Shown one piece after another: positions 15,440 to 25,070 of a DNA stretch of 64,000 nt; position 1 is the stretch's first letter, and every line of letters begins with the position of its first letter. The notes beneath the pieces are model-generated. The model did not search any database and was not told where the DNA came from. It was given only the letters and a program-made list of their open reading frames with translations. The position numbers and the translations under genes were made by a program. Source of the stretch: Mycolicibacterium alvei (GTDB taxonomy: Bacteria; Actinomycetota; Actinomycetes; Mycobacteriales; Mycobacteriaceae); NCBI RefSeq assembly GCF_010727325.1, contig NZ_AP022565.1, forward strand, positions 2,046,001 through 2,110,000. Direction: 5' to 3'.

Positions 15440-15862
15440 ATGACCGTCTTATCGACGAATGCACTGACCGACCGGACCGACGATTCGCCTGCGACGTTTG
15501 CGACCCGCCGACTGCCGCCGGCAACGGCGGTGATCAGCGCCCACGGTGATATCGACGCCCTCAATGCAGGCGATTTCACCGACTACGCATTGCGGCACGC
15601 CACCAATGTCGAGCATGTCGTGGTCGACCTCACCGATGTCGAATTCTTCGGCACCGCAGGGTTTTCCGCCCTCATGGCGATCGAATTACATTGCTCGGCG
15701 GCCGATGTCGCCTGGGTACTCGTTCCCAGCAAGGCGGTGAATCGACTGCTCCGCATCTGCGACCCGGATTCGGCGTTGCACACGCACTACAGCGTGGCCG
15801 CGGCACTGTCCACACTCAGCGGCAAAAATCCGCTACTGCAGCTGGTCACGAAGTCGCGCTAG
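15440..15862 (+). CDS. STAS-domain anti-anti-sigma factor homologue 1
   Basis: 140 residues with a single STAS domain (about 25-125): ATAVISAHGDIDALN, VVVDLTDVEFFGTAGFSAL. Such proteins bind RsbW-type anti-sigma factors and free the sigma factor. At the position of the phosphorylated serine of SpoIIAA-type proteins there is Ala73 (GTAG), so classical phospho-control looks impossible. The gene ends inside the sigF 3' end (30-base convergent overlap), placing it tail-to-tail with the sigF/rsbW pair it may control. A paralogue stands at 19311-19739. Confidence 0.85.
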   Translation: MTVLSTNALTDRTDDSPATFATRRLPPATAVISAHGDIDALNAGDFTDYALRHATNVEHVVVDLTDVEFFGTAGFSALMAIELHCSAADVAWVLVPSKAVNRLLRICDPDSALHTHYSVAAALSTLSGKNPLLQLVTKSR

Positions 15863-16585
15863 CGATTTCGCCAGGAGTCTCGACACATGCATCTGCGAGA
15901 CACCGACCCGCTCGGCGATCTGCGACTGCGTCATGGATTCGAAGAATCGCAGCAACAGCACCGTGCGCTCGCGCTCAGGTAATTGAGCAAGCAACGGCCG
16001 CAACGTTTCTCGATTGTCGATCTGATCCAGGCCGGTGTCGACGTCGCCGAGTGTGTCAACTATCGTCGGCGCGTCCTCTTCACCCCCGCCGCCACTGTCG
16101 ATCGACAGCGTGTTGTAGGAACTGCCGGCGACCAGCCCTTCGATCACTTCTTCGCGGTCCATGTCGAGCTCCACGGCCAGCTCTGAGGCCGTCGGCGCAC
16201 GGCCCAGCCTCTGCGACAGTTCCGCAGTCGCCGAGCCGAGCCGCAGGTGCAGTTCTTTGAGCCGCCGCGGCACCTTGACCGACCAGCTGTTGTCCCGGAA
16301 GTGTCGCCGGACCTCGCCCATGATCGTCGGTACCGCGAACGATATGAAGTCAGACCCGGCCTCGACATCGAACCGGTTGACCGCGTTGACCAAACCGACC
16401 CTCGCCACCTGGACCAGGTCTTCACGTGGTTCACCGCGACCGTCGAACCGCCGCGCGATGTGATCAGCAATCGGCAGGCACCGCTGCACAATGCGCTCGC
16501 GTTGGCGTTCGTAGGCCGAGGATTCCTCGGACAGTCCGCTGAGTTCGCGAAACATGTCGCGAACATCCGCATATTCCGACGTCAC
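15833..16585 (-). CDS. sigF: Stress-response sigma factor SigF
   Basis: 250 residues, a group 3 sigma factor of the SigB/SigF type. Region 2 is seen in EDLVQVARVGLVNAVNRFD and FAVPTIMGEVRRHFRD, region 3 in PRRLKELHLRLGSATAELSQRLGR, and region 4 in LPERERTVLLLRFFESMTQSQIAERVGVSQMHVSRLL. SigF directs RNA polymerase to GTTT-N15-17-GGGTA promoters in stress and stationary phase. Its ATG overlaps the rsbW stop (ATGA). Several promoters of that form are found in the following 6 kb (see separate entries), so the neighbourhood appears to be part of its own regulon. Confidence 0.95.
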   Translation of the reverse strand: MTSEYADVRDMFRELSGLSEESSAYERQRERIVQRCLPIADHIARRFDGRGEPREDLVQVARVGLVNAVNRFDVEAGSDFISFAVPTIMGEVRRHFRDNSWSVKVPRRLKELHLRLGSATAELSQRLGRAPTASELAVELDMDREEVIEGLVAGSSYNTLSIDSGGGGEEDAPTIVDTLGDVDTGLDQIDNRETLRPLLAQLPERERTVLLLRFFESMTQSQIAERVGVSQMHVSRLLAKSLARLRDQLQ

Positions 16586-17718: not shown

Positions 17719-17976
17719 TCAGTGATTCCGGAGCATCGCGATCAGCTCGCGCTTGTTTTTGTCGGAATACCCTTTGATACCAAGCTCTTTCGCCCGGCTA
17801 CGCAGATCATCGACTGGCCAGTCGTCATAGGAGCCGGACTTGCCGCCCGCGCGGCCGACGCTCGAACGCCCCCGGGCAGCAGCGGCATTGGAGATCCGCG
17901 CGGATTTCTCCTTCGAATTGCCCTCGTCGCGCAGTTCCTCGTAGAGCTTCTCGTCTTTGATGGACGGATTCGGCAT
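17719..17976 (-). CDS. Rho-N/SAP-like small stress protein (DUF7218-type)
   Basis: 85 residues. The N-terminal half is charged and rich in Lys/Glu/Ala (KDEKLYEELRDEGNSKEKSARISNAAAARG). The C-terminal 35 residues (DWPVDDLRSRAKELGIKGYSDKNKRELIAMLR) form a Rho-N/SAP-like helix-turn-helix seen in DNA- or RNA-binding proteins. A ribosome site AAGGGAGG precedes the ATG. It lies between two small membrane protein genes and usfY on the same strand, probably in a SigF-controlled transcript starting near 18392. Confidence 0.75.
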   Translation of the reverse strand: MPNPSIKDEKLYEELRDEGNSKEKSARISNAAAARGRSSVGRAGGKSGSYDDWPVDDLRSRAKELGIKGYSDKNKRELIAMLRNH

Positions 17977-19310: not shown

Positions 19311-19739
19311 ATGTCCACCATCAGCGCCGGGAAACCGGCGATTTCTTCTGCGAACCATCACGGCCGTGCCCATTTCTGCACCCAGTGGCTGTCGCCGGCC
19401 ACCGCAGTGGTCAGTGTCCACGGCGAGTTGGATGCGTCCAACGGTGCAGAGCTGACCGAATGCGGCATCCTGCACAGCAGGCCGAGCCGACAACTCGTCC
19501 TCGACCTGAGCGCGGTCGAGTTCTTCGGTACCGGTTGCTTCGCCTGCCTGCACACCCTCAATGTGCGCTGCGCCGGCGAAAACATCGACTGGGTAATGAT
19601 TCCCAGCTCCGCCGTGTCCCGGGTGCTGGGAATCTGCGATCCGGCCGGTGCCCTGCCAACCTCCAGCGGCCTGCCTGCCGCCCTGTCGATGCTGCGGAAT
19701 CACCCACTACCGTTCCAGTTGGTCAACGTGTCTCGCTAA
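19311..19739 (+). CDS. STAS-domain anti-anti-sigma factor homologue 2 (RsfA-like)
   Basis: 142 residues, paralogous to the protein at 15440-15862 (shared TAVVSVHGELDASN, LVLDLSAVEFFGTG and ICDPAGALPT segments). The phosphoserine position is Gly75, and Cys76 and Cys79 stand beside it; further cysteines are at 23, 51, about 88 and 108. M. tuberculosis RsfA is known to be redox-regulated through cysteines, so redox control is a reasonable inference. The stop overlaps by 4 bases the end of a convergent RsbW-like gene. The pair resembles the RsfA/RsbW3 pair described in M. smegmatis. Confidence 0.82.
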   Translation: MSTISAGKPAISSANHHGRAHFCTQWLSPATAVVSVHGELDASNGAELTECGILHSRPSRQLVLDLSAVEFFGTGCFACLHTLNVRCAGENIDWVMIPSSAVSRVLGICDPAGALPTSSGLPAALSMLRNHPLPFQLVNVSR

Positions 19740-20248
19740 CCGCCGGACAGGGCCCAACGCCGCCGCATCGTCAGCGTTATACCGAATATGGATTGGCTAC
19801 TGCCATTGGTCGCGTAATCAGTCTCTTCGACGAAGGTGACGACCTTTTCAGTCAGCGCCTCAAGTACCCGGCGGCTGAAACCGCTTAAGAAGACGCTGCC
19901 GGGGGCCACGTGCAGCCGGTCACAGACCGCCGACACCCGAACATCGACCTCGCGTAGGCGGGGTTCTTCGATGAGTACCAGGTCGGAGCCGGGCTCGGCC
20001 ATGCCAATCAGCACCGTGCACGCTTCATCCACCGCCAGTGCCAAGTCGGTAGCCGTATCGCCATCCAACTGTTCGTAGTCGGCCAGGGAGCCCGTCATCG
20101 ACCTCACCAACGCCAGCGCGTGCGCACGTGCGGGGACCCGGAGTTCGACAGCTCGCGATCCCTGCGTGTGGCCATATCCCGAGTGGAGTGTTGGCCGACC
20201 GTGCAGCACAGTCAGCCGGGGCCTCGGTAAGCGGCCTGACGATGACAT
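19736..20248 (-). CDS. RsbW-like anti-sigma factor, second copy
   Basis: 170 residues if the ATG at 20248 is used; an ATG at 20254 is 2 codons upstream. The GHKL core is clear: VELRVPARAHALALVRSMTG, LALAVDEACTVLIGM, then FGITLTMRRR at the end, which matches the ITLTTRR end of RsbW 1. The N-box asparagine is replaced by valine, so ATP-dependent kinase activity is doubtful. A SigF promoter ends 4 to 10 bases before these ATGs, implying leaderless expression under SigF, that is, negative feedback. It faces STAS gene 2 tail-to-tail. Confidence 0.82.
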   Translation of the reverse strand: MSSSGRLPRPRLTVLHGRPTLHSGYGHTQGSRAVELRVPARAHALALVRSMTGSLADYEQLDGDTATDLALAVDEACTVLIGMAEPGSDLVLIEEPRLREVDVRVSAVCDRLHVAPGSVFLSGFSRRVLEALTEKVVTFVEETDYATNGSSQSIFGITLTMRRRWALSGG

Positions 20249-20257
20249 GTTCATCGC

Positions 20258-20285
20258 GTACCCAAAGTCGCCCAAGCACTAAACC
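20258..20285 (-). promoter_or_regulatory. SigF-type promoter of the second rsbW
   Basis: Minus strand: GGTTT (complement of 20281-20285), 17-base spacer, GGGTAC (20263 to 20258). The expected start point is around 20251, between two in-frame ATGs. Confidence 0.75.
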
Positions 20286-20329: not shown

Positions 20330-20530
20330 TCACGCTGCGCGTCGGCTACAGCCGAGAATCTCCGGCTCTGCGACATCGGTGACCAGATAATCAGGGCTGT
20401 GCCACAGCAGTTCGGTGAAGGCGTACTCGGTGAGGGCCTGCCGGTGCTGCGATTCGAGAACGTCTGCGATCCGCTCGAAGATGACTTCTCGCCCGCCCTG
20501 GACTGACGGGGATTGCGCTGACCTGGCCAT
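20330..20530 (-). CDS. Small hypothetical protein of the SigF block
   Basis: 66 residues from the ATG at 20530, which follows GAGGTGAGG. The sequence (IFERIADVLESQHRQALTEYAFTELLWHSPDYLVTDV) is mostly helical and carries no known domain. An ABC-like 'YxVTDVAEP' C-terminal strand precedes a basic tail. A consensus SigF promoter lies 32 bases upstream. It is divergent from the diiron-type gene at 20636. Confidence 0.65.
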   Translation of the reverse strand: MARSAQSPSVQGGREVIFERIADVLESQHRQALTEYAFTELLWHSPDYLVTDVAEPEILGCSRRAA

Positions 20531-20561
20531 GTTCCTCACCTCGACTTCGACAGACTGTTAA

Positions 20562-20588
20562 ATACCCCCGCAGGTACCCCGACAAACC
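20562..20588 (-). promoter_or_regulatory. SigF-type promoter for the 66-residue gene
   Basis: Minus strand: GGTTT (complement of 20584-20588), 16-base spacer after GTTT, GGGTAT (20567 to 20562). A full consensus match. Confidence 0.75.
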
Positions 20589-20597
20589 GACACACGG

Positions 20598-20623
20598 GTT
20601 TACCAGAACCCCCTGGCGGGCAT
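20598..20623 (+). promoter_or_regulatory. Divergent SigF-like promoter for the diiron-type gene
   Basis: GTTT (20598-20601), 16 bases, GGGCAT (20618-20623): one mismatch to GGGTAT. The predicted start is about 6 bases before the ATG at 20636, so the transcript would be nearly leaderless. Confidence 0.55.
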
Positions 20624-20635
20624 TCCTCATCCGCC

Positions 20636-21655
20636 ATGACGACGCTCCCCGCCCTTCTGCAACCGGGGCTCCCGTCCGCGAAGGGGCCCATCTCCGCCGC
20701 CCTGATCGAGCGGCTCGGCGACCGTGCACCGCAGAATCATCTCGAGCCGGTCTGGGTGCCGCTGCGCGATGCCGAACCACTCGGCCTGGATGTGCAGCTG
20801 GCCCTCTACATCTGCTACGAACTGCACTACCGGGGCTTCGCCGGCGTCGATCAGGACTGGGAATGGAACGCCGGGCTGCTGCACTTGCGGTCGCAGTTCG
20901 AACGGATCTTTCTTGCGGCGGTCCGCCGCGAGGTCGGCCAGATCGATGCTGACGACACCGCCGAGCGGGAGATGGCGCGCCTGTCGGTCGAGCCCGCCGA
21001 CGGAACCGGCCCGTCGTATCACCTTCGCGATGAGGGCACGTGGGAGCAGATGCGCGAGTACTTCGTACACCGGTCGCTGTACCACCTGAAAGAGGGCGAC
21101 CCGCACGCCTGGTTGATCCCCCGGCTGGGCGGCCAGGCGAAAGCCTCCTTCGTCGCCATCGAGTACGACGAATACGGGGCGGGCTCAGCGAGCCGCCTCC
21201 ACCAGAACCTGTTCGCCGACCTCTTGAGAGAAGCCGACCTGGACGACCGCTACCTCGGCTACCTGGATGCTGTACCGGCTGAAAGCCTGGCGCTGGTCAA
21301 TCTGATGTCGATGTTCGGCTTGCACCGACGACTGCGGGGCGCCGCTGCGGGTCATTTCGCGGCCACCGAGATCACCTCCTCGCCAGGATCGCAGCGGATG
21401 GTCGCCGCCTTGGAGCGCTTGGGCGCTCCCGAGGCGTGTGTGCGGTTCTACCGTGAACACGTTGAGGCCGACGCAGTGCACGAACAGGTTGTCCGTCACG
21501 ACGTGGTGGGCAATCTCGTCAGCCGCGAACCTGAGCTGGACACGGACGTGGTGTTCGGGATTCGAGCCTTCGACGCGCTGGAAGACCGGCTGGCCGCTCA
21601 CTTGATGGAGAGTTGGCAGGCGGGCCGCAGCTCGCTACCCCGGCCGCTTGCCTGA
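20636..21655 (+). CDS. Heme-oxygenase-like diiron protein (iron-containing redox enzyme family)
   Basis: 339 residues. The all-helical sequence carries the ligand pattern of the HDO superfamily (CADD, UndA and others): Glu62/His64 in CYELHYRGF, Glu176 and Glu179 in AIEYDEYGAG, and His275-x3-Asp279-x2-His282 in YREHVEADAVHEQ. HDO proteins bind two metal ions and activate O2 for oxidations; the substrate here is unknown. The 3' end overlaps by 21 bases the convergent CDGSH gene, which is co-transcribed with a methyltransferase. I recall this trio recurring in actinobacterial annotations. A SigF-like promoter precedes it. Confidence 0.82.
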   Translation: MTTLPALLQPGLPSAKGPISAALIERLGDRAPQNHLEPVWVPLRDAEPLGLDVQLALYICYELHYRGFAGVDQDWEWNAGLLHLRSQFERIFLAAVRREVGQIDADDTAEREMARLSVEPADGTGPSYHLRDEGTWEQMREYFVHRSLYHLKEGDPHAWLIPRLGGQAKASFVAIEYDEYGAGSASRLHQNLFADLLREADLDDRYLGYLDAVPAESLALVNLMSMFGLHRRLRGAAAGHFAATEITSSPGSQRMVAALERLGAPEACVRFYREHVEADAVHEQVVRHDVVGNLVSREPELDTDVVFGIRAFDALEDRLAAHLMESWQAGRSSLPRPLA

Positions 21656-21838
21656 TCGCGAAACTTTGCGATGGCTGGTGTCGCACAACGGATAGGACTT
21701 GGACCGTCGGCATGTACAGATGGCTACCATGAACCGATCTGACTCCACGATGCTCCCGTCAGGTAGTTCGATCCGTACCGGCCCCTCGATGAGGATCGGT
21801 CCGCCCTGAACCACCCGCACTTCCCGACGTTCTGTCAT
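21635..21838 (-). CDS. CDGSH-type iron-sulfur protein
   Basis: 67 residues from the ATG at 21838. The [2Fe-2S] binding motif is complete: Cys41-x-Cys43-x2-Ser46-x3-Pro50-x-Cys52-Asp53-x2-His56 (three Cys, one His). The N-terminal part forms beta strands (VVQGGPILIEGPVRIELPDG), as in other short bacterial CDGSH proteins. Such clusters are redox-active and can be transferred. The ATG overlaps the methyltransferase stop (ATGA), so the two are translated together. An electron-transfer or cluster-donor role to the convergent diiron protein is an inference. Confidence 0.88.
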   Translation of the reverse strand: MTERREVRVVQGGPILIEGPVRIELPDGSIVESDRFMVAICTCRRSKSYPLCDTSHRKVSRSGKRPG

Positions 21839-22545
21839 GGCTTGTCCGCCCTGATGACCACCAGTTCCTCTTCGGTCCTGGCATCCGCCAGCCGCCCGGT
21901 TTCGCGAAGCCACCAAGTCTGCGAGTGGAGCACCGGACCGAATGGAATCCGCTGCACGGCAAAAACATCCGCATCGAGTCCGCTTTCACGCAACAGCGTC
22001 ACTGACTGCTCGACGTCGGAGAATTCTGACTGGACCAGAAACAGGGACCCGCCGTCGGCCAGGATGGCCGCGGCCGAGCGGCACAGGGGGTCGAGTACCA
22101 GCCGGCCATCCGAACCACCGTTCCAGGAAGCCGTCGGATCGGTCGACACGACCACTCCCGTGGAGGTATCCGGCGCTACCGGCACGTAGGGCGGATTGCA
22201 CACCACGATATCGAAGGGGTCATCTTCCAGCGCCTGAGTCCAGGAACCGAGCCTGGCATCGACGTCGACCTGTGCGGCGAGCGCGTTGGCCCGGGTACAG
22301 CGGATCGCGCTGGGCGAAATGTCCAGCGCCGCCACTGCGCTGGCCCCGAGATTGGCCGCAGCGATGGCAACCACTCCGCTCCCGGCACACAGGTCCACCA
22401 CAGTGCGGCCCGCCACTGCCCCACTTCGCTCCAGCGCTTCGACCAGCAACCAGGAGTCGTGCTGGGGCCGGTAAACACCCTCAGCGCCAACGGCAATGGT
22501 CTCTACGGCCATTTCAGCAGCCAATTCGCTTCTTCTGGACAGCAC
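21835..22545 (-). CDS. HemK/MTQ2-like class I SAM methyltransferase
   Basis: 236 residues if the GTG at 22545 is used; an ATG at 22512 (MAVETIAVG) is the alternative. SAM-binding motif I is DLCAGSGVVAI (51-61), and the catalytic NPPYVP (117-122) is typical of enzymes methylating glutamine or adenine amide/amino nitrogens. The short N terminus (GVYRPQHDSWLLVEAL) is like HemK2/MTQ2 rather than PrmC, which has a long N-terminal domain. It starts 10 bases after a SigF promoter, so GTG use would be nearly leaderless. A CDGSH gene follows with overlap. The methylation target is unknown. Confidence 0.83.
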   Translation of the reverse strand: MLSRRSELAAEMAVETIAVGAEGVYRPQHDSWLLVEALERSGAVAGRTVVDLCAGSGVVAIAAANLGASAVAALDISPSAIRCTRANALAAQVDVDARLGSWTQALEDDPFDIVVCNPPYVPVAPDTSTGVVVSTDPTASWNGGSDGRLVLDPLCRSAAAILADGGSLFLVQSEFSDVEQSVTLLRESGLDADVFAVQRIPFGPVLHSQTWWLRETGRLADARTEEELVVIRADKP

Positions 22546-22554
22546 CCCTGTTCG

Positions 22555-22579
22555 GTACCCACCCGAGCATTTCGCAAAC
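22555..22579 (-). promoter_or_regulatory. SigF-type promoter of the methyltransferase/CDGSH operon
   Basis: Minus strand: GTTT (complement of 22576-22579), 15-base spacer, GGGTAC (22560 to 22555). The predicted start point is 3 to 4 bases before the GTG at 22545. Confidence 0.72.
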
Positions 22580-22705
22580 TTCCCTGGCGGGTAAAACTCC
22601 GTTCGTCACGTCACGTTTGAGGCCGCCGCATCTGGGAAATCCAGGGGGTGCGTGGAGAAGCCGCGTAGTAATCACCAATCCACTCCAGAAGCGGAAAGGT
22701 ACAGC

Positions 22706-22948
22706 ATGACCGAGAAGAACTCAGGACCCGAAGAAGGCATCAAGGGCGTCGTCGAGGATGTCAAGGGCAAGGCGAAGGAAGCAGTCGGCACCGTGACCGG
22801 CCGCGAAGACCTTGTGCGCGAGGGCAAAGCCCAGCAGGACAAGGCCGACGCTCAGCGCGAGGTCGCCAAGAAGGAGGCTGAAGCTGAGTCGGCTCGGGCG
22901 GGCGCCAAGGCTGCCGAGAAGCGTGAGCAGGCGCATCAGCGTCCCTAG
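22706..22948 (+). CDS. CsbD-family stress protein
   Basis: 80 residues from the ATG at 22706 (AAAGG upstream). It has the CsbD core GIKGVVEDVKGKAKEAVGTVTGREDLVREGKAQQ, followed by a charged helical tail of Ala/Glu/Lys/Arg. CsbD proteins belong to the general stress regulon (SigB in Bacillus); their molecular role is unclear. A weak SigF-like element (GTTT 22615-22618, GGGAAA 22634-22639) lies upstream. The transcript ends at the strong hairpin shared with the convergent usfY copy 2. Confidence 0.85.
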   Translation: MTEKNSGPEEGIKGVVEDVKGKAKEAVGTVTGREDLVREGKAQQDKADAQREVAKKEAEAESARAGAKAAEKREQAHQRP

Positions 22949-23749: not shown

Positions 23750-24435
23750 CTAAACCTCCGGCCCGACCCGCTGGTGGGCGGTGAGTAACAGCCGATCCAG
23801 GACCACACGGCTGGGCAGCGTCTCGGCGTAGTCGAGATCCAGGAAATCCTTGGCGAGCTGCTCGGCCAGACGACGTAGTTTCGTGTTGGTTTCCTGCGAC
23901 CGCCACTTCAGCAGCTCGAACGCCGCATCCGCATTGATCCGGTAGATCAGCATCAGCATGCCCTTGGCCTGCTCGATGGCGCCGCGGGCCTCGGCGATCT
24001 CGGCCACCACCTCACTGAGGGCATCCTCGCGTGCCTGCGTGACCGACGGCGAGACGTCGACGTAGAAGCCATGCGTTCCGATGACGGCGCCGGTGTCGTC
24101 GACCAACTCATCGCCGACCACGACGACGTGGTGGACATCGCCGGCCGTATCGATGATGCGATGCCGGGTGCTGAACGCGCTCGAGGTGCGTCGGATTTCC
24201 AGCAGGGTCGCTGCGACCTGACCGTAATCCTCGGGGTGCTTTGAGAGAGCACCAGCTCGGTCGTCGGGTGTGCGGTGCCGGGCTCATATCCGTGCATCCG
24301 CTCCACCTGCGGCGACCACTCCCAGCGCTCGTCGGCGAAAAAGAACCGGAACCAGCCGACGCGTTGCGCCTCGCCGCCGGCGAACGCATGCTCGATCGGC
24401 GACTCGGGGTTCTCCGCAGCGGGATCACTCGTCAC
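23750..24435 (-). pseudogene. PAS-ANTAR regulator, frame broken
   Basis: The frame from 24435 encodes a PAS-3 start (RVGWFRFFFADERWEWSPQVERMHGYEPG) and leaves the correct frame near 24240-24245. There, adding one A to the AAA of CTCAAAGCAC would restore HPEDYGQVAATLLEIRRT. The second frame carries the rest of the PAS domain (DELVDDTGAVIGTHGFYVDV) and a C-terminal ANTAR domain (IAEARGAIEQAKGMLMLIYRINADAAFELL). ANTAR proteins bind paired hairpins in nascent RNA and prevent termination. Either a one-base deletion or a sequencing error. Whole length would be about 229 residues. Confidence 0.75.
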
Positions 24436-24506
24436 GGACTGAGACTATCGCGCCACGACGGCAGCGGCTCGACCGATTGTCACAGCTGAGGTCTACATTC
24501 GGCGCC

Positions 24507-25070
24507 GTGAGACGGCTTCGGATCAAGCTCTTCGTCGCGGCCGGTGCGGCGGCTGCGATCGCGAGTCATCTGGCAGGCGCCGGCGTGGCGTGGAATCTGG
24601 CCATCGGTGTCCTGGTGCCGCTGGTCCTGGTCGCCACGCCACGCCTCCTGCTGGGCGCATTCCGTGGGGCCGTCACTCCCAGCGCCCGTGAGCAGGCGGC
24701 GACCGAGATGACCGGGCTGGAGTTCGAGGACCACGTGGCCCACGTCGCACGAAAGTGTGGGTTGCCGGTGGCGATGACTCCGCTCACCGGTGACTGGGGC
24801 GTCGATCTGATCGTCGGACACCGGCCGAACCGGATTGCGGTGCAGTGCAAACGACTGTCCCGGCCGGTGGGAGCGGGCGCCGTGCAGGAGGTTGTCGCGG
24901 GTGCGCCGATGCAGGATTGCACCAGGACCATGGTGGTGACCAACAACGAATTCACGCCGGCCGCACGTAAACTCGCCGAGCTTCACGGTTGCGACCTGGT
25001 GGGCGGAACCGACCTGCCGAGGCTCAAGTCGATCCTGCGTCGCGCTGCGGCGCCAGACGTCGCGACTTAG
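24507..25070 (+). CDS. Membrane-anchored Mrr-like restriction endonuclease-fold protein
   Basis: 187 residues from the GTG at 24507. Two N-terminal transmembrane helices (about 8-26 and 29-48) are followed by an Mrr-cat domain with the PD-(D/E)xK variant core: EFEDHVAHVARKCG, GDWGVDLIVGH (catalytic Asp) and IAVQCKRLSRPVG (QxK). The end (AGAPMQDCTRTMVVTNNEFTPAARKLAELHGCDLVGG) is the usual Mrr-like C-terminal region. A nuclease at the membrane could act on incoming or damaged DNA; that role is inference. The stop overlaps lat by 4 bases on the opposite strand. Confidence 0.82.
   Translation: MRRLRIKLFVAAGAAAAIASHLAGAGVAWNLAIGVLVPLVLVATPRLLLGAFRGAVTPSAREQAATEMTGLEFEDHVAHVARKCGLPVAMTPLTGDWGVDLIVGHRPNRIAVQCKRLSRPVGAGAVQEVVAGAPMQDCTRTMVVTNNEFTPAARKLAELHGCDLVGGTDLPRLKSILRRAAAPDVAT

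Follow-up and report, generated by a model that had tools for sequence, protein, structure and literature searches.

The locus examined here lies in a 64,000-nucleotide stretch of Mycolicibacterium alvei DNA (Actinomycetota; Mycobacteriaceae; contig NZ_AP022565.1, positions 2,046,001 to 2,110,000), called the window throughout, and raises the question of why a gene for a heme-oxygenase-like diiron oxygenase (HDO) should meet, end to end, a gene for a CDGSH-family [2Fe-2S] protein that is itself coupled to a methyltransferase gene. The HDO and CDGSH genes are linked beyond chance and form the core pair, which the methyltransferase often joins as a third member. The locus probably points to one undescribed actinobacterial stress pathway, with the CDGSH protein feeding electrons to the HDO. 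The component families are already known; their pairing is undescribed in the literature searched, where no description joining CDGSH with HDO was found.

Linkage of the HDO and CDGSH genes

At E <= 0.001 the M. alvei genome yields one HDO and one CDGSH match. The two genes are convergent and share 21 bp at their 3' ends, and the methyltransferase gene overlaps the CDGSH gene by the four bases ATGA; the overlapping ends and the ATGA coupling had been noted in a preliminary description of this DNA made from its letters. That description also named the three families as neighbours in other actinobacteria and proposed a search for their co-occurrence; counts by family, phylum and plasmid bear this out. 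Among 121 genomes of the family (HDO counted at >=150 bits, methyltransferase at E <= 1e-20), HDO occurs in 93 and CDGSH in 95, with both in 93 and neither in 26; CDGSH stands without HDO in two genomes (G250 and G302). The methyltransferase is found in 90 genomes, every one among the 93 with HDO, so that three HDO genomes (G246, G284 and G307) lack it. CDGSH lies within 10 kb of HDO at 91 of 96 places (61 convergent, 14 divergent and 16 on the same strand), and the methyltransferase gene runs into the CDGSH gene within 150 bp at 69 of 94 methyltransferase places, a count that left out 13 CDGSH rows (second or double-motif matches, G250 and G302; one row was entered twice). A Fisher statistic on the family co-occurrence ignores kinship, and comparison within genera is a rougher guide: seven genera (g1, g2, g171, g185, g187, g188 and g189) include genomes of both states, and within them CDGSH accompanies HDO or is missing with it, except in G302 of g2, which keeps other CDGSH proteins; G307 of g171 has HDO and CDGSH and no methyltransferase. 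In the mycobacterial loci, which are the best 80 of 237 HDO loci, all three genes fall within the fetched stretch in 76 cases; L011 lacks CDGSH, and L012, L042 and L080 lack both partners.

The linkage extends across the phylum. Within a sample of 246 genomes, with HDO places again taken at >=150 bits, CDGSH lies within 5 kb of HDO at 32 of 49 places, and those 32 are spread over 13 families. Weaker HDO matches supply a built-in control: CDGSH is found within the same distance at 0/41 places scoring 80-150 bits and at 0/15 scoring below 80 bits. The methyltransferase accompanies HDO at 15 of the 49 places, counting the 21 rows of at least 114 bits among the matches listed, which reach down to about 39 bits. 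The orientation of HDO relative to CDGSH is variously convergent, same-strand or divergent; four loci (L099, L106, L107 and L108) have the order HDO-methyltransferase-CDGSH in one direction, L112 has methyltransferase-CDGSH-HDO, and the convergent form of the window reappears in a distant family (L092).

Plasmids carry the pair as well: 16 records have an HDO relative and 17 a CDGSH relative, and in the 12 common to both, which are the HDO records of 43.7-59.9% identity, the genes are no more than 1.1 kb apart; the remaining five CDGSH records lack an HDO match. On plasmid pW21 of Curtobacterium, HDO and CDGSH occur alone and overlap by four bases, with the methyltransferase absent. All three genes are present on plasmids of Streptomyces NBC_00984, Streptomyces CA-256286 and Kitasatospora NBC_00039, and in the latter two SigB/SigF-type, STAS or SpoIIE regulators adjoin the set. 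Variation in order and strand, and recurrence of the pair on plasmids, lead us to reject a single frozen ancestral operon as the sole cause of the linkage. An HDO relative on a Gordonia plasmid (L155:4651-5691) is split into two reading frames, with no CDGSH motif nearby.

The three proteins

The HDO exceeds the PF14518 cut-off and has a predicted structure (predicted local distance difference test, pLDDT, 94) with a heme-oxygenase-like helical fold and a set of three histidine and three carboxylate ligands placed by alignment. Its H-x3-D-x2-H motif begins at residue 275, giving H275, D279 and H282 exactly as first read, and the upstream glutamate ligands mentioned in the preliminary description are E153 and E179, which alignment to SznF assigns together with H189; all six residues are unchanged across 80/80 aligned HDO sequences. 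Structure prediction, which the same description had named as a check, thus returns the HDO fold along with the ligand residues (the latter by alignment). Fold comparison of the model places three N-oxygenases nearest (HrmI 33.3, SznF 29.1 and RohS 28.0), followed further down the ranking by FlcD (24.8), CADD (22.4), BesC (19.1) and UndA (18.7). This ranking suggests a diiron oxygenase of N-oxygenase type, with a predicted diiron centre and predicted O2 activation.

PF09360 is the only family found in the 67-amino-acid CDGSH-family protein. Its motif, CTCRRSKSYPLCDTSH, satisfies C-x-C-x2-S-x3-P-x-C-D-x2-H, with three cysteines and one histidine as ligands, and reads CDTSH, not CDGSH. The signature consensus of the family includes a literal CDG; it is absent here, and the protein is therefore classed as a divergent PF09360 protein rather than a canonical CDGSH protein. 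The original assignment as a CDGSH [2Fe-2S] gene accordingly stands as to family score and ligand motif, and fails as to the literal signature. CDTSH is the form in 76 of 77 mycobacterial CDGSH matches, the window counted, and across the phylum a CDTSH-type change occurs in 19 of 37 HDO-CDGSH pairs, CDG being retained in the other 18.

The methyltransferase has N6AMT1/HemK2 as its nearest solved structure (E 1.7e-15), and its NPPY and a W-x2-G-x2-GR stretch, mostly as in N6AMT1, are preserved in 11/11 aligned relatives. It passes the cut-off of TIGR00537 (HemK2/MTQ2), in agreement with the NPPY methyltransferase of HemK2/MTQ2 form originally proposed; the relative in Streptomyces CA-256286 scores 86.7 bits, slightly below the cut-off of 87. 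Identity with PrmC is rejected (TIGR03534 99.5 bits against a cut-off of 199.1), and the true PrmC is encoded elsewhere in the genome (232.5 bits). The genome has one Trm112-like gene, unlinked to the locus.

SigF control and neighbouring genes

In the window, the motif GTTT-N15/16-GGGNA is found 8 times where 1.89 occurrences are expected, and 0/100 shuffles reach 8; four of the occurrences surround the HDO set (20563 and 22556 on the minus strand, 20598 and 22615 on the plus strand). The promoter counts cover the window together with its relatives among the mycobacteria, with random 180-mers as control (151/8100 with the motif). Upstream of the methyltransferase the motif is present in 76 of 78 cases, upstream of HDO in 48 of 81 and upstream of the CsbD-like gene in 17 of 20, and it precedes none of 77 CDGSH genes. 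The corresponding reverse-strand controls are 35/78, 9/81, 11/20 and 0/77, and divergent neighbours probably account for the high ones. Of the SigF-type promoters that the preliminary description had given to all three genes, those of HDO and the methyltransferase are upheld and a separate one for the CDGSH gene is rejected.

Expression data from Mycobacterium smegmatis are consistent with this control; papers are cited here by PMC number. Gene order, names and promoters suggest that MSMEG_1771-1773, annotated only as a methylase and conserved hypotheticals (PMC4694148), correspond to the window genes, with which they share gene order and strong SigF dependence (PMC4694148, PMC5445863). The MSMEG_1771 promoter, GTTT-N15-GGGTA, is the same as that of the window methyltransferase, whereas MSMEG_1773 has GTTT-N15-GGGAA where the window HDO has GTTT-N16-GGGCA. 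When sigF is missing, MSMEG_1770-1774 drop by log2 3.3 to 6.4, and the exponential-phase values for MSMEG_1771, 1772 and 1773 are log2 -6.17, -5.91 and -5.98 (PMC4694148). The SigF regulon rises in an aa3-oxidase mutant or under KCN, that is, when respiration is blocked (PMC7693655), and MSMEG_1770-1774 are higher in spray-dry-cycled than in naive log-phase cells, with a probability of 76-100% (PMC5445863).

Table 1. Features of the HDO locus and its surroundings, in window coordinates
Feature	Position	Strand	Details
HDO	20636-21655	+	339 aa (amino acids); PF14518 207 bits, cut-off 28.9
CDGSH-family [2Fe-2S] protein	21635-21838	-	67 aa, CDTSH variant; PF09360 59.4 bits, cut-off 29.5
HemK2/MTQ2-type methyltransferase, upstream gene of CDGSH operon	21835-22545	-	NPPY; TIGR00537 109.3 bits, cut-off 87
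SigF-type promoter of HDO	20598-20622	+	GTTT-N16-GGGCA, ends 13 bases before ATG
SigF-type promoter of methyltransferase-CDGSH operon	22556-22579	-	GTTT-N15-GGGTA
sigF, likely controlling sigma factor	15833-16585	-	about 4 kb off; NF005514 SigF 474.9 bits, cut-off 372
69-aa reading frame	20330-20539	-	
SigF-type promoter of 69-aa frame	20563-20587	-	
CsbD-like gene	22706-22945	+	NCBIfam microaggregate-binding protein 1, 122.8 bits
SigF-type promoter of CsbD-like gene	22615-22638	+	divergent from methyltransferase
STAS	19311-19739	+	weak, below Pfam cut-off
RsbW-like	19736-20275	-	weak, below Pfam cut-off
DUF7218 + Rho_N protein	17719-17976	-	
Mrr-type restriction endonuclease domain protein	24270-25070	+	

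The preliminary description began the module at position 20330 and so took in, unmentioned, the separate 69-aa frame. Nine mycobacterial loci conserve this frame with 40-53% identity; it scores above the cut-off of no Pfam or NCBIfam family and may be the counterpart of MSMEG_1774. Between sigF and HDO, the STAS and RsbW-like genes lie end to end and resemble the M. smegmatis genes rsfA and RsbW3, which are reported to lie close together (PMC7693655). The sigF region further holds the DUF7218 and Mrr-type genes of Table 1. No sigF match was found within the 80 mycobacterial HDO loci. An RsbU/SpoIIE-type phosphatase gene occurs in the fetched HDO stretch of L057, L061-L063, L065-L070, L073-L076, L078, L079 and L109, and several of the mycobacterial loci bearing it are from what we take to be slow growers.

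Other neighbours accompany the set in particular lineages. In 12 loci (L085, L087, L090, L093, L095, L101, L103, L105, L116, L119, L120 and L156) a gene next to HDO or close by encodes a protein that we read as GT2-like; there is no Pfam match at E 0.001 for the one member searched and no NCBIfam match at 1e-5 for two. A YbdK/GCS2 ligase is present in four loci besides the query by tblastn, one of which (L132) has the methyltransferase and no HDO; F10, a more loosely drawn cluster of YbdK frames, covers nine loci and consists partly of shadow frames. These ligase and GT2-like genes suggest a metabolite whose details depend on lineage. A VOC gene adjoins HDO on a single Streptomyces plasmid (tblastn). 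On the Kitasatospora plasmid a dimethylargininase gene (L154:4127-4948; NF045659, 386.7 bits) lies between the YbdK ligase and HDO genes, all in one direction, and by tblastn no further locus among those fetched has it; the hint of an arginine substrate was dropped, this neighbour being confined to one locus.

Possible function and comparison with known systems

We put about even weight on the reading in which an N-oxygenase-like HDO receives its electrons from a dedicated donor, the CDGSH protein, and the two, together with the methyltransferase and switched on by SigF, make a stress-protective product. Under stress, SigF would turn the set on; the HDO would activate O2 and oxidise a nitrogen (amine, amide or guanidine) in a small molecule resembling an amino acid; the CDGSH protein, docking through a basic surface on the acidic HDO, would act as a dedicated one-electron donor that re-reduces the diiron site between turnovers; the methyltransferase, where present, would methylate the substrate or product of the HDO; and the product would protect the cell. 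The preliminary description had suggested an O2-dependent oxidation with help from the CDGSH protein, linked to methylation of a protein or small molecule during stress. That reading is borne out in part: the diiron-type fold and ligands, the linkage, the SigF control and the idea of an assisted O2-dependent oxidation are supported, and we infer the electron transfer and substrate, as we do the N-oxidation, methyl acceptor and protective product. A wider proposal, that an actinobacterial HDO subfamily with CDGSH as obligate reductant, together with the methyltransferase, supplies most mycobacteria and many streptomycetes with a so far undescribed small molecule, N-oxidised and methylated, as a general-stress protectant, is tentative and on balance doubtful. 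If true, the donor reading would assign a biochemical function to a set of bacterial CDGSH proteins, tie HDO chemistry to the general stress response rather than to antibiotic pathways and suggest an overlooked protective metabolite made by mycobacteria.

In favour of this donor reading, the net charge of the HDO is negative in 37/37 pairs and that of the CDGSH protein positive in 36/37, in a comparison of whole chains with no control set. Several observations weigh against it. N-oxygenation is drawn from fold rank at 17-18% identity; FlcD, which is no N-oxygenase, matches the HDO model over its full length; a Phe in HrmI aligns opposite E153 of the HDO; and HDOs with identical ligands catalyse different chemistry (PMC13108848). 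The partner is not universal: across the phylum, CDGSH is missing within 5 kb at 17 of the 49 HDO places (10 belong to genomes in which CDGSH has no match at all, the other 7 to genomes with CDGSH elsewhere), in the family the contig holds no CDGSH at 5 of the 96 places, and four plasmid HDO records of 24.5-42.0% identity (Gordonia at 42.0% and three at 24.5-29.5%) have no CDGSH match. Accessory neighbours differ by lineage, and a single product is therefore hard to square with them. As to control, the reverse-strand count for the methyltransferase is high, probably because of its divergent neighbour, and MSMEG_1771 and MSMEG_1773 are unchanged both between stationary and log-phase naive cells (probability 1% and 0%) and between powders of cycled and naive cells (11% and 0%; PMC5445863). 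Finally, the HDO-CDGSH linkage by itself does not discriminate between the donor reading and its alternatives; it fits cluster or iron delivery as well as it fits electron donation.

This last point bears on the idea that the CDGSH protein is a maturation factor, giving iron or its [2Fe-2S] cluster to a labile HDO diiron site while another reductant serves turnover, which we consider quite improbable. Cluster transfer is a property of mitoNEET-type CDGSH proteins, and the linkage data agree equally well; to our knowledge, however, HDOs examined to date take up Fe(II) in vitro unaided, and in our judgement a one-to-one partner beside the enzyme on plasmids is more typical of redox partners. Many HDOs are described as having labile clusters (PMC13108848), in keeping with a need for maturation. 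A pair that removes peroxide or O2, in analogy to rubrerythrin with rubredoxin, would make no metabolite and leave the methyltransferase a side role. Such a stress-defence role agrees with SigF control, and it has a precedent in DtpC, an HDO-type protein that keeps H2O2 low in dried Acinetobacter baumannii lacking katE and requires its predicted metal ligands to do so (PMC13232832); its E143-x9-H153 spacing equals E179-x9-H189 of the HDO. DtpC, however, apparently gives no protection against acute H2O2 (PMC13232832); the structures nearest the HDO are substrate-oxidising enzymes, and a neighbouring methyltransferase, amide ligase or GT2-like gene would be unexpected beside a scavenger. We regard this alternative as unlikely. 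Less probable than either is a regulated protein-modification unit in which the methyltransferase modifies a glutamine or lysine of a protein, perhaps the HDO itself, like its HemK2/MTQ2 relatives. The TIGR00537 score, the NPPY and W-x2-G-x2-GR stretches kept in all aligned relatives and the Trm112-like gene in the genome speak for this reading, but that gene is unlinked, release factors are served by the separate PrmC, and the HDO-CDGSH pair occurs without the methyltransferase.

HDO systems already described allow comparison with the window set. HrmI, for which we know of no CDGSH partner, belongs to an antibiotic pathway. It is a lysine N-oxygenase (PDB 9n1x) with 18% identity to the HDO, and its Phe occupies the position of E153. 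The central domain of SznF, an N-methylarginine N-oxygenase that has additional domains compared with the window HDO, is described as having three histidines and four carboxylates (PMC13108848). Three residues before H189 the HDO has Ser186 where SznF has an Asp that is perhaps the seventh ligand, and three histidines and three carboxylates are therefore expected for the HDO. DtpC, the one precedent for the stress side of the donor reading, shares with the HDO a proposed role in stress protection and the E-x9-H spacing, a likeness by spacing and description only; it is co-transcribed with katE, and the excerpt available of its description mentions no CDGSH or methyltransferase partner (PMC13232832). 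A parallel in design is the mangotoxin pair MboA and MboB, in which, as proposed for the window, an HDO has a dedicated iron-sulfur redox partner, encoded in the same operon there and beside the HDO here; MboB, however, is an NAD(P)H reductase with flavin and Fe2S2, in contrast to the 67-aa CDGSH-family protein (PMC13185094). An acidic region of MboA and a basic patch of MboB have been proposed, a polarity that the acidic HDO and basic CDGSH protein recall (PMC13185094). Few dedicated electron donors of HDOs are known at all: MboA and MboB may be the first characterised pair of an HDO with a dedicated redox partner (PMC13185094), and HDO-CDGSH would be a second kind.

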